Part shown: positions 2,447-9,871 of the stretch, piece after piece
Numbering within the stretch: position 1 is the stretch's first letter
Layout: each line of letters begins with the position of its first letter
DNA from: Antrodiella citrinella
Lineage: Eukaryota; Basidiomycota; Agaricomycetes; Polyporales; Steccherinaceae
Assembly: GCA_004802725.1 (NCBI GenBank)
Contig: SGPM01000455.1
Location: 1-17,784 of the forward strand
DNA: 17,784 nucleotides
Reading direction: 5' to 3'
Notes under the pieces: generated by a model
The model's input: only the letters and a program-made list of their open reading frames with translations
Told to the model about the DNA's origin: nothing
Database searches by the model: none
Position numbers and translations under genes: made by a program

Positions 2447-5400
2447 CTAAGGCGACACAGGGAGCGGGGGCAGGTCTCCATCCACAGACGTCGCCGACGA
2501 CGAGGGCGTCAGCGTCCCTCCAGTGAACATCGCCTTTAACGTCGACTCGTTCCTCTTCTGTCTTATCCTCTCCACCTCCTCCGCTCCACCCGTCATCTTG
2601 AGCTTCTTTCCATCTACGAACCCCGTCAATTCCGCCTGGAACTCGTCCGAGCGCGCCGCGAGCTCCTTCTCCCTTTGCTTCTCGTTCGCCGCGATCGCCT
2701 TCATGCGCCGCTCGGCGTCCACCGTTGCTGTACGAATCTCCAGCATCACGTTGCCGATCCCCGCGCTGCTGTCTTCCACTGGCGGTGGCTTGAACCCGCG
2801 CCCTGTGCGCAGGGCACGTGCGGACCCTGTCCCTCGCAACGAGATGACCTTCTCGACGTGCCCGTACACCTCCAGAACAGCCTTCTGGTCCTCGAGGAGG
2901 TCGGTGAGGAACTCCTCCTGATGACTCAAGAACTGCTGCTCCTCCACGATATTCTGCAACTCCTCCTCCCACGTCTTCTTCCACATCGGCTTGATTGTCT
3001 GGATATGGTCCTTCAAGCTCTGCAGCTCCGCCGACACGGAGTCCACGTCCGCCTTAATGTTCTTCAAAACCTGCGGGCGGGGCGAGATGTTCCGCTTCAA
3101 AACGTCGTCCTTGATGCTCTCCACGGTATCCTGCAGCTCCTCCATCTTCGTCAGCGCATTCTGACTGCGCGAGTCGAGCTTCGTCTTCCCGTCGTCGATG
3201 TACGCACGCGCGCCGCCGACCTTGTTCGTCGCGAGCTGCCGTACGTTCTGCGTCTTCGCGCGGAGCGTCCCGAGAGATTCTTTCGTCTGCTTCATGAACT
3301 CGGTGTAGAGTTGCCGCATGATCCCCAGGTCCCGGCGCAGGTTCTGCACTTCGTCGAATTGATTCTTAAGATCGCCGACGATCCGGGCGGAGGATTCGGT
3401 CATGACTGACATGCCCGTCATCTGGGGTTGGATGGAAGAGCCGGTCATCTGTGAGATGATGGGCTCGCTTCGAGTAGGTGTGGGACCGTCTTCGTCTTTC
3501 TCGGGGATGAGGCGAGATAGTTGACGCGCTGCTTGACGGAAGCTGCGATCTGACGGACGGTTAGGTGCTGGGGTGCTCTCAGCCAGCGGTTGACCGAGGA
3601 TCATGGGAGGAATGGACATGGAGGCACGGCGACTACTGGCGACGGTAGCACGGAGATCTTTGATGTCTTGAGATAGCGTGGAGATTTGCGAATCAATATG
3701 CTGCTTGATCTGGTCGAGGGCTAGAGAGCATATTAGCACAAGACTCTAGACGTACAGAGTAAATCGCGGGACGTACGTTCAATGTTCAAAGACAGAAGAC
3801 ACCTATCCTTGATCTCTTCAATGTCTTCCAGCTCATACTGAACTCCACTCGATGGATCTCGGATGTAGATTGCGGGGAAGTTGTCCTTTCCAGGAGAATA
3901 TGAGAACCTGTCCACAAAGAGCACCCGCAAGCTCGAGAACGTCAAGCCTGGCTCAATAGTAACTTTCTTCACCTCCCGTCCCACTTGCAAGAACACCGTC
4001 AGCGACGTAGGTTTCGTCTCCATCGTGGCACTCAGGAAGGGCGTCGGAGGCGTTACGGCCACAGAGATAGACGTGTCTTGCCGCAGTGATTTGGAAGGAG
4101 AGACATCTCTGGAAGGCAATGGTGGGACCGGAGGAGGTTCTTCGTCGTCTTCGGTGATAGGTGATGGATTCCGCCCTCCTCTACGAGTCCTCTTATTCGG
4201 AGAAGGCGACCTCTCATCTTCCTCGTCCAACGTAGCCAGATCACCCGGAGTCAGCGCATTTGACGCAGCGATAGACATCCGCGATCCATGGTTCCCATTC
4301 GTCATCCTCTCCCTGATAGACCCACCCGTCATCTTCGAGATGTTGTACGTCGAGAACCGCTTCGACGCTCTCCGCTCCAGGACGTCGCTCTTCTTTAACG
4401 CTGCAAGCGAGTTCTGAACCGCCGGAGTAGCATCTGGCTCGATAGGTGATGGCGGGATGCGTGAGGTCGGGGTCTCTTCGTTACCAATCTGAGGGCTCAT
4501 GGCTTCGTCAATTACAACAGCTGGAGGGGGCGGCGTGGACGTAGAGAGGATGGGTTTGTCGGATAACGAGAAACGTGGAACATGACTGGGAACGGGTGCA
4601 TACACAGACGTCGGTCGTGGTAAAGGCTCCTTGTCTTGCTGAGGAGTAGACGATGGAGGGACCGGAGGTAGATCTGGGGGAATTTGAACTGGTGTTGATC
4701 CCGTCCTGGATGGGACGCCGTTCGCTGCTCTGCGTCCTGGGGTGGATGATCGTGAAATCACAGGGTCCTCCGCCTGCATCGCAAACCCTCCCACAAACTG
4801 CTCTGATCCATTCGTCGGTGGACGCGACGATCCAGAAACGCTCTCCTTCCGGCTCTTCGTCGACGACGCACTCCTCCTCGCCAAGCTATCCGAATCCCCC
4901 ACGCTCTTTGACGGCCTCCTTCCTCCGCTGCTCGACGTGCTCTCGTGTCTCGACGAAGTCCGACTCTCCGGACGCTCCGGGTTGCTCACGCTTGAAGTGG
5001 TGTGTTTGTGTTCGGAAACAAGGCGTCGGTAGAGAGACTGCTTCCCCCGCAAGCCTTGCAGAAGACGAGTGATGATCTTGCGTACATCTGGAAGGAAGAT
5101 CTCAAGGTTCTCAGCCGTAGCGTCCTCCGCAAGGCACAACTCGAGGATGGCGCGCAGGTCGTCTGGTACGGATAGCAGCTCGCTGCAGGACGTCAGTGCT
5201 TTTCGTTCCCGTCGGATACGATGAGGTACAACTCACGTCATGTCTATGTTGAAAGAAGCAAAAGCCGCTACTGCTGCGTTAAAATCATTGCCCAACCGCA
5301 CATATACATCGCTGACGTGTGTCTCTGCCACCTTCTGCTGACTCCATAGGGTTAACGACTCCAGTAGCTGTTTGATAGCGACCAAGAGGCGAGTGACTGC

Positions 5401-6848: not shown

Positions 6849-7623
6849 TATGACGAGGCTTGGACCAGGGACGCGTCGAGCACAACGTTCAAGGTCAACG
6901 TTCAAGAACGCGACCAAGTCATGTGAACGGCCAATGCCGAAACCACCGAAAACAGCGCGCTCATGCCATTGCTTGCTTGACTTCCGTGCGAAGTTGCTGC
7001 ACAGTGCAGCGAGTAGTTCCTTTAAGATGGATCTCGAAGGTCTCAATGTTCTCAACAGCGAGCGTCGTGTAGAACCGCGCGTGTCGTAAACAAAAGGGTG
7101 AGTTTGAAATTAGACTTCTGGCTGTATCGAGTCATCTCCCAAGAATACTTATCCGGAAAACCACCTTGGTCTTTCCATGCAGCTAGGGTCATTTCGGCTC
7201 GCCATTCACACTGTATGGCGACTTCAGCAGCTGACAGCACCAGGAACTGCGAACAGTCGCGTTGCCTTTTGATTGCGTTAAGCGCCTAAAAAGTTGCCAA
7301 CACAATAAGAACGACCCCTCCTGGACGAACCTGATCACGACCAGCGCCACATGGGGATTCATCCACTGGAACGCGACGCCCGCCTTATTGTCTTGTACGG
7401 GGAGGCTTTCGGAAATTCGCTAAACGTGCTGATGTCGAGTGAGCAGGGCCTTTTGTCTCCCAATCTGTGATCGAGATTCGAAGGGCTCCAGGTGCGGATC
7501 CTCCGTCCAAATTTTGGTGCGCAGCGTCAGGAAGCAGCTCGTATTGCTGGACGAGTGGCTGTTTCTTCGTCATCCGATACCCTCGATTCACATCGCTTCG
7601 GTCCGGAATTCTGTGCCCCGATG

Positions 7624-7680: not shown

Positions 7681-7686
7681 ATATAA
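7681..7686 (+). promoter_or_regulatory. TATA box of the pheromone-like gene
   Basis: ATATAA, within GGATATAAGG, lies about 105 bases before the ATG at 7788. This fits a short 5' UTR of about 70-80 nt, followed by a pyrimidine-rich stretch that suits a fungal transcription start. Confidence 0.55.
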
Positions 7687-7787
7687 GGTGAGACATCTGC
7701 GAAGGAAGACGATATCCCACCACCCCTAAGCAACTCTCACTTGACACTTTTTCGTTCTCAAGTCAATCACCCTGACCCTCAGTTGCT

Positions 7788-7910
7788 ATGGACGCCTTCA
7801 CATCTACCGTTACCGCCCCCGTCACCACCACCCCTCCTCAGGAGGTTGACATGCCCTCCGACTACGAGAGCGGTAGCCCTGGCGGGTCAAACGGCTGCAT
7901 CATTGCTTAA
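7788..7910 (+). CDS. Mating-pheromone-like lipopeptide precursor with CAAX box (CIIA), 40 aa
   Basis: The gene encodes a 40-residue precursor that starts MDAFTST and ends SNGCIIA before TAA. The N-terminal MD(A/S)F, a Thr/Pro-rich middle, an acidic stretch (QEVDMPSDYESG), a Gly/Ser-rich tail and a C-terminal CAAX box together match Agaricomycete pheromone precursors. In that family, Cys (here C37) is farnesylated, the last three residues are removed, the Cys is carboxymethylated, and the N-terminal part is cut at a charged site. The mature peptide would then be about 10-14 residues ending SGSPGGSNGC; the N-terminal cut site is uncertain. In other basidiomycetes the product is exported and sensed by STE3-type receptors. 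A TATA box and two ACAATAA boxes lie upstream, and an intron follows the stop codon by 7 bases. No STE3 gene is visible here, so it may be a non-mating 'orphan' pheromone-like gene. Confidence 0.85.
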   Translation: MDAFTSTVTAPVTTTPPQEVDMPSDYESGSPGGSNGCIIA

Positions 7911-7917
7911 ATGCCAC

Positions 7918-7978
7918 GTACGTACGCTCACTAGCTCTACAACACATCCGATTGACTAACCTCTTGCTTGATACACAG
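7918..7978 (+). other. Putative 3'-UTR intron of the pheromone-like gene
   Basis: GTACGT at 7918 (or GTACGC at 7922) pairs with ACACAG ending at 7978. The branch-like sequence GACTAAC lies 18-24 bases before the acceptor. The intron would be 61 (or 57) nt, like the coding introns in this window. It starts 7 nt after the TAA and so leaves the protein unchanged. Transcript evidence would be needed to prove it. Confidence 0.6.
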
Positions 7979-7999: not shown

Positions 8000-9871
8000 T
8001 CACACTGCGATCTCTGATACCACACACCGCACCATTATCCCCTACATTATCCGCATCACCCACCCATTCATATCCACGCGAAACATTTTTCATGTCCGCA
8101 CGCACATTCATCATCTTCTCAATTCCGCACACGCATTTTTCGTTCTGCGTTTTTATCAATTTCGGTTCAGATTTGGCGTCGATGTACTCCGCCTTTTAAC
8201 TTATCCTGTTGTCTTGTTTGGTTGGGTCATTTGTTAGCAGAGGCAAGGGAATTGCAGAAGGAGAGGCGAGGGGCGATTAGTAGATTGGTTATTCGTCAGG
8301 CTTAGTAAGGTCTGGACGACACGAATGAGATGAATGCATGATTACTGTTGCAGCTTCTTGTCAACTTGGCCTGCCAGACCCGGTAGTAGCTTCACCATAA
8401 TACAAGTCTTCTCTGAGATCGTATCAATGGTAATCTCGCCTGCTCGCAAAAATCGGGGAGTCGGATAGCTTAGGGTTACAAATATGGAGTGATATATATA
8501 CATAGTTTTATCGACTGTCGTAAAACATCGTTATAGTTTGCCACGGAGACTAGGAGCGATACTACAGCGACGCGTTGATATGTCAGCTTGAGTGAGTCCT
8601 GAGATTACGACGAGCGCGGCGACAATAAGATCGAACACATAAGTTCTTCAACTTCGAATAAGCCTCCTTGACGTGTCAAACGACCATACTGGATGGCAGT
8701 ATTTGGGAATTATCTCCTATGCAAGGTGGAAGGTTTGGTGAGAAGATACATATTGTCGTCACTTGGATGTCTGATCGACGAGTCTCACATCTTCCGGCTC
8801 AAGAAATGCAGGTCAACTCAAATACTGAATCTCTAAGAGTTGAACACTTCCTATAATAACAAGAACTCATAGGACAAGGTCGTCCCCAAGACGCGTTAAG
8901 AACTTGAAGAAACGGCGAAACTGAGAACCACGTGCACGAGCTCATCGGGACCCGGGATCCGGCGAGACCCGCCCCCTCGGTCTCGACATAAGCCGGGTCG
9001 TCTTGAGGTCGTCGGCAACAGGAAGAAACGACCTGGGCCATTGAACTTCCTCTTCTCTTTCCTTCATCCTTGCTTCACCCTCATTCTAGGGAATATTGTG
9101 CACACAGCTGCCCATGAATACTCGGTATCTCCATACAATGTACATGCGGTTCTATTCAAAGCGGACTCGGTAGCTAGTTGGCTCGGACCGTCAACTTCAG
9201 ATACATTTGCATCTCCACTTCCATGCCGTTCCTGCGCAAACGTCAAGTCATGTACAGTAATACATAGGAGAACACCCCATGACCCACCGAGGTTTTCGAA
9301 GGGATTCGTCAACCGCGCGCTGTTCCAACGCTTGAATTGTGAGTCGTTGTCGAACTTTCCAGAAGATTCAGAATTTCCGCGCAAAGGAAGTGACAAAATG
9401 CTTTGGCTTACCTTTCAAGCTCCGATGCGGTTGAGAACACGCGAACTCGGGAGAAAGGACCTCCGACCTGAGACGAGATGGGAAAAATCAGAGATGATAA
9501 GATACTGATCTATCAGTGAGCGGGAACGTCTGCGCACGAGCAGGAAATAGTAACCTTACTGTGAATGGAGCTTGAGATTAAGGTGATAATGAACAGTGAG
9601 CATGGATGAAACAAGTAGCTGAATGATATCGATAGATATCATGCAGTCGCCCTGGGGAATGAGCACAGGGAGAAATCAATGTTTTGGAGCCTATTTCTCA
9701 CTATAAGCCACTCACACATGCAAAGGCGAGACGCACGACCTTGACCCCGATCAGCCAGCCGTGCTTATCCTGCCACATCTTGCTGCATATTCTTGCACCT
9801 CTTCCAGAGGCGGGCCTGCCTCTCATCTTCAGGACCTCGGTCCGTTGCGAGGAGAGTGTCGTCCTCGCAAA
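8000..9871. other. Gene-poor stretch between the pheromone-like and BTB genes
   Basis: The left part is the probable 3' UTR of the pheromone-like gene: CA-rich sequence to about 8200. The rest holds an AT-rich patch at 8490-8510, a further ACAATAA at 8622-8628, a GC-rich patch at 8930-9020 and the BTB-gene promoter (CTATAAG near 9700). The open frame at 9041-9508 has no recognisable domain and no ATG at its start, so I do not call it. I see no tRNA. Confidence 0.5.
9623..9642. repeat. Perfect 8-bp inverted repeat with a GATA loop
   Basis: ATGATATC, then GATA, then GATATCAT form perfect arms around a 4-nt loop, 230 bases upstream of the BTB gene. It contains GATA/TATC on both strands, so it could be a binding site for a dimeric or GATA-type factor as well as a small hairpin. 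No function is demonstrated. Confidence 0.5.

Follow-up and report, generated by a model that had tools for sequence, protein, structure and literature searches.

Lipopeptides of the a-factor type are farnesylated, lose the aaX residues, are carboxymethylated, receive an N-terminal cut and are exported, and are then sensed by an STE3-type GPCR. The accessible parts of PMC8305134 are a second source for these steps, from farnesylation to sensing. Previous studies have found non-mating-type pheromone-like precursors in Coprinopsis cinerea, L. bicolor (Laccaria), A. bisporus (Agaricus), and P. cinnabarinus (Pycnoporus) (PMC8305134, PMC4101180). In the accessible text, A. bisporus has four such Gly-rich genes; ESTs show expression and a 3' UTR intron for at least three, and three flank a transposon-rich centromere (PMC8305134). 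P. cinnabarinus also has four (PMC4101180). On the receptor side, overexpressed non-mating receptor-like genes of S. commune are described as altering colony growth or growth direction and raising self-avoidance (PMC8161036), and available passages of two papers describe non-mating STE3-like receptors as unexplored so far or as needing further work (PMC4101180, PMC8970355).

Here, we describe a gene of Antrodiella citrinella whose 40-aa product is probably a dispersed non-mating-type precursor of an a-factor-like farnesylated peptide that would signal via an STE3 receptor. The dispersed peptide class is already known in mushrooms, and this gene adds a member with a different core. Compared with the non-mating precursors in the accessible literature, A. 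citrinella likewise has a set of genes that resemble one another and lie outside the PR locus, with an MDA/SF-type start, a CAAX end, a Gly-rich core and a 3' UTR intron, the latter seen in ESTs there and predicted here. Conversely, the core is -GSNGC or -SHSGC here and GGGSGNGAYC or GGGSGNNAYC there; one of the A. citrinella genes (C155) is Ser/Asn-rich, and three of the four have a common upstream element. The exact tails (SNGCIIA and five others) were not found in the open-access main texts searched. The S. commune Brl system shares a possible receptor side, namely STE3-like receptors outside mating; receptors are reported there whereas ligand genes are read here, and neither the accessible text of PMC8161036 nor this analysis pairs a ligand with a receptor.

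A short CAAX gene and its dispersed relatives

The window, the whole stretch of DNA analysed, is the complete contig C395 (17,784 bases), and the genome examined comprises 30.0 Mb in 602 contigs. The gene, whose product reads MDAF...GSNGCIIA (Table 1), combines the MDxF N-terminus, short length and C-terminal CAAX box (here CIIA) of basidiomycete lipopeptide pheromone precursors. Because the stop-to-stop frame spans only 44 aa, the start is closely bounded, and translation confirmed the 40-aa peptide, with its MDAF start and GCIIA end, that a first-pass annotation had reported. ORFs of 30-70 aa with the pattern MDxF...C(AVILT)(AVILT)x arose in none of 1500 second-order Markov simulations of the window. 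Outside it, the strict MDxF-CAAX pattern has 16 matches in 187,169 examined bases (including two 200-base overlaps), 13 on contigs C502 and C581 and three that are paralogs. The frame is not a chance ORF. Elsewhere, the window holds a Bud6/AIP3 polarity gene at 2447-5139 on the minus strand, in two long frames (PF03915, 2.8e-107 and 8.9e-31), and an F-box/LRR-like protein at 889-2124 on the plus strand, below Pfam cut-offs.

Table 1. Features of the window, dispersed paralogs, and receptor places in the A. citrinella genome. Positions are those of the window unless a contig is named; negative numbers count from the start codon.
Feature	Position	Strand	Remark
Upstream block	7374..7480 (-414 to -308)	+	81% identical to block upstream of C203
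18-base upstream element CAATCTGTGATCGAGATT	7461..7478	+	core of upstream block, CAATCKGTGATCGAGATT
TATA-like box	7681..7688	+	at -107
CDS, 40-aa CAAX precursor, stop TAA	7788..7910	+	translation MDAFTSTVTAPVTTTPPQEVDMPSDYESGSPGGSNGCIIA
MDAF N-terminal signature	7788..7799	+	translation
Codon of E27, putative processing site	7866..7868	+	invariant in four paralogs; aligns with E of ER in P0009
CAAX box CIIA	7896..7907	+	putative farnesylation at Cys37
Predicted 61-base intron in 3' UTR	7918..7978	+	GT 7918, CTAAC 7956, AG 7977-7978, after TAA
16-base 3' UTR motif GTCGATGTACTCCGCC	8178..8193	+	common to C395, C203, C453, C/T at one place
Paralog C203	C203:35228-35347	-	69% identical to window protein
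Paralog C453	C453:1710-1826	+	63% identical to window protein
Paralog C155	C155:42480-42608	+	50% identical to window protein
STE3 places	four on C581 (127-166 kb), two on C502, one on C86, one on C107		PF02076
B mating-type genes	C581:127282-166055 and C502:1-11892		six STE3 places, 14 CAAX precursors

All four dispersed proteins start with MD[AS]F and end in SNGC-x-x-A. A DNA pattern for NGC-x-x-A-stop occurs at four places in the genome, which are these four genes, and its reversed control at one; four is a lower bound, CAAX ORFs having been sought in selected regions of the genome. Gly makes up four of the last ten residues to the Cys in C395 and C203, three in C453 and one in C155, whose tail is without the Gly-rich character. 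The three paralogs are identical, letter for letter, to deposited A. citrinella hypothetical proteins (EUX98_...), as are two peptides of the B clusters, so the earlier claim that length-filtered gene finding would miss such a gene holds only in part. All three sit no more than 1-2 kb from the end of their contig, which may mean adjoining repeats. Viral contigs gave no match.

A single-protein search with the window protein returned that protein alone and missed its own paralogs; alignments were required. The profile of all 18 A. citrinella precursors weakly matched one Cerioporus squamosus protein (P0007, E 7.7), the second half of which, MDAFTIAPALP...GTSGSHSGCIIA, resembles the dispersed family with 40% identity to the window protein. 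P0007 was deposited as 84 aa with two MDAF starts and is perhaps the product of two adjacent precursor genes fused by the gene predictor. Once this piece was included, the profile matched seven further proteins (39-70 aa, E 4e-12 to 2e-4), which lean towards C. squamosus because the profile contains a C. squamosus piece; they are 32-41% identical to the window protein and come from contigs of 626-3863 bases. The eight relatives in all carry the MDAF signature, internal in P0013 (excluded from alignment A4), and a CAAX-type end, the first a of which is T in P0004 and P0011; P0014 ends in SECVVA, not SGC. The three paralogs and eight relatives support the first-pass description of a CAAX precursor of basidiomycete pheromone type, and the lack of conservation that, according to that annotation, would refute it was not observed, since the MDAF start and CAAX end recur in the relatives.

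Sequences shared around the dispersed genes

The TATA box noted in the first pass is present as a TATA-like ATATAAGG/TATAAGGT at -107/-106. Such a box precedes all 18 CAAX precursor genes, at -97 to -154 (searched from -160 to 0); by comparison, 237 of 7347 ATGs (3.2%) have one in -160..-85, in a control set that includes the precursor genes' own ATGs. The upstream block has one other copy found in the genome, upstream of C203. With at most one mismatch, its 18-base element occurs at three places genome-wide, all upstream of dispersed genes, at -327 (C395), -235 (C203), and -243 (C453), the C203 copy having G at the sixth position and the C453 copy one further mismatch. Two mismatches add four more places, and the reversed control pattern gives one. 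Upstream of the 14 precursor genes of the B locus, the best match has 5-7 mismatches within the 326-800 bases available (326 for C581a and 765 for C581f), and the element is absent upstream of C155 (best match five mismatches). PRE-like motifs are scattered and uninformative.

Downstream, the intron proposed in the first pass is present as an intron-like stretch, predicted and placed in the 3' UTR after the TAA. All four dispersed genes have such a stretch 3-13 bases past the stop, but 14% of ORFs of 30-70 aa (246 of 1774) have one just as near the stop, so that the predicted intron by itself argues little. Within 80 bases of the stop, it is found in seven of the 14 B-locus genes, which says little of them because the background is 41%. 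The 3' UTR motif GTCGATGTAYTCCGCC has two copies in C453, the second carrying a single mismatch, and one copy in each of C395 and C203. It is weaker than the upstream element because, when up to two mismatches are allowed, it matches at 49 places, compared with 16 for the control, and because C87 holds an additional exact match. A further family member beside that C87 match was rejected, with no CAAX ORF in 1001 bases. A larger duplicated segment was also rejected: over 2 kb on each side (less upstream of C203, 1048 b, and C453, 1709 b, and downstream of C155, 1197 b), what the loci have in common is confined to the gene with its close surroundings, to the upstream block or 17-base core, and to 3' UTR pieces, plus one 21-base match.

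These features bear on whether the window gene might be a relic, a dispersed pheromone gene that used to function but has ceased to be expressed or sensed. A dN close to dS in some paralog pairs would be in keeping with decay, and dN/dS is indeed not low in every pair (C395/C453, 0.28/0.36; C203/C155, 0.69/0.81), although these values are indicative only, being based on ~28 synonymous sites. Conversely, frame and CAAX box are intact in all four copies, the TATA-like box is retained in all four and the upstream element in three, and the C395/C203 changes (dN 0.18, dS 0.72) fall mostly at third codon positions (7, 5, and 15 at positions 1, 2, and 3), an indicative lean towards purifying selection. 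We therefore regard a relic as unlikely.

STE3 receptors and the B mating locus

Searching the genome with PF02076 (STE3) gave 25 exon matches, grouped into eight receptor places. Contigs C581 and C502 hold six of these together with 14 other CAAX precursors, nine on C581 (129-147 kb) and five on C502, of which 13 start with MDxF and one with MDPQ. On C581 (240495 bases), 74 kb or more of sequence separates the cluster from each end of the contig, and C502 (11892 bases) carries the second receptor/precursor cluster. Three C502 precursors resemble C581 ones (e.g. MDTFECLPIS...), which would be expected if they were alleles or close paralogs, and the two clusters may perhaps represent two haplotypes of the B mating locus; allelism is without receptor support because identity between the receptor fragments of C502 and C581 does not exceed 52%. 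According to the accessible text of PMC12878558, the A. citrinella reference genome has 1228 contigs and 33 Mb, compared with the 602 contigs and 30.0 Mb examined here, the culture was started from pieces of fruit body, which would be compatible with a dikaryon, and population reads also exist. Other short ORFs have a CAAX-like end, and a few start with MD rather than MDxF (C581 at 154,599; C203 at 17,076); these were set aside as chance by eye.

Some receptor places stand apart from precursors. About 18 kb separates the 165-kb receptor of C581 from the precursor closest to it, and on C86 (54.6 kb) and C107 (51.5 kb) a scan of 20 kb per contig found no MDxF-CAAX precursor. In a tree of eight receptor fragments, from A. 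citrinella only and with no outside references, C107 is the most divergent (17-26% identity), whereas the C86 fragment shares 20-40% identity with the rest and clusters with that of the 165-kb C581 receptor (support 0.98); such a tree does not type the receptors. Solved structures gave no match to the C86 receptor fragment.

None of the four contigs bearing dispersed genes has an STE3 match, all four being short, at 15-44 kb (C453, 14877; C395, 17,784; C203, 36395; C155, 43676 bases), so that linkage to the B locus over a larger distance is conceivable. The absence of STE3 near the window gene, already reported in the first pass, extends to the entire window contig, and the 10 kb downstream cited there is the contig end and no biological limit, because the window is a whole contig. 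Clustering with STE3 genes, a mark of B mating-type pheromones, is thus not seen for this gene. It could still be a mating-type-specific pheromone of the B locus or of a displaced sublocus, as it shares length class, CAAX box and TATA position with the 14 B-locus genes and the MDxF start with 13 of them, and as the C502 cluster fills its 11.9-kb contig, so that a rearranged second haplotype is possible. Set against this, the window contig is without STE3, and the C581 cluster lies well inside its contig; the tail resembles the three dispersed paralogs and not the B-locus peptides; the upstream element differs, and a match to the Pfam pheromone model is missing. Moreover, the Bud6 gene of the window has a single match in the genome, which argues against an extra haplotig, and a duplicate haplotig was rejected on that ground. 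Membership of the B locus is accordingly very unlikely. Between the two alternatives of the first-pass annotation, an orphan or non-mating signalling peptide fits, while the edge of a B mating locus was judged unlikely from the contig positions, the window being a whole contig free of STE3, C502 being separate, and the C581 cluster lying at ~127-166 kb of a 240-kb contig.

Proposed processing and possible role

The Pfam model PF08015 (Pheromone), run at E<=10, did not list any of the four dispersed proteins, in a search where HMMER filters drop most matches above ~0.1; it matches 11 of the 18 A. citrinella precursors, the one shown passing the cut-off with 22.6 vs 22 bits. We retain the class of pheromone precursor on the other features, because PF08015 is a sequence model and not a defining requirement. 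Around the expected site, 10-15 residues before CAAX, the window protein has none of the cleavage dipeptides of other species given in the accessible text of PMC8305134 (ER, DR, EH, NH, EE, and DE), a genuine weakness of the processing proposed here. The relative P0009 has ER at the putative cleavage site, and the position of E27, ten residues before Cys37, is occupied by D or E in the relatives aligned in A4.

Assuming that the window protein is a dispersed non-mating-type precursor, we propose that it would be farnesylated at Cys37, after which IIA would be clipped and the exposed Cys37 carboxymethylated. A protease cut near Glu27 would then leave ~10 residues, close to SGSPGGSNGC-farnesyl, and the mature peptide may be exported and perceived by an STE3-type receptor. 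A prenylated peptide acting inside the cell or at the membrane, and no pheromone, is extremely unlikely: CAAX alone is no proof of export and the canonical dipeptide is missing, but in its MDxF start and overall design the protein matches the precursors beside STE3 receptors and published ones (PMC8305134, accessible text).

The likeliest role for such a pheromone-like peptide would be an autocrine or colony-level signal via an STE3 receptor, during vegetative growth or dikaryon development. The colony level is proposed because, in the accessible text of PMC8161036, non-mating receptor-like genes of S. commune affect colony growth, by analogy only. Non-mating STE3-like receptors and pheromone-like peptides recur across mushroom-forming fungi. 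In a single sequenced polypore, a ligand family with a conserved core and an upstream element now stands alongside isolated candidate receptors, so that the pairing of ligand and receptor can be put to a direct test. Short genes of the sort passed over here by the Pfam pheromone model can, moreover, be sought with the core motifs. More tentatively, we hypothesize a Polyporales-wide second lipopeptide channel apart from mating, a doubtful though possible arrangement in which GSNGC/SHSGC peptides, partly co-regulated by their own upstream element, would act through a non-mating STE3 receptor. If so, the receptors on C86 and C107 would be the first candidates and the 165-kb receptor of C581 the third, and the peptide would serve self or colony recognition.
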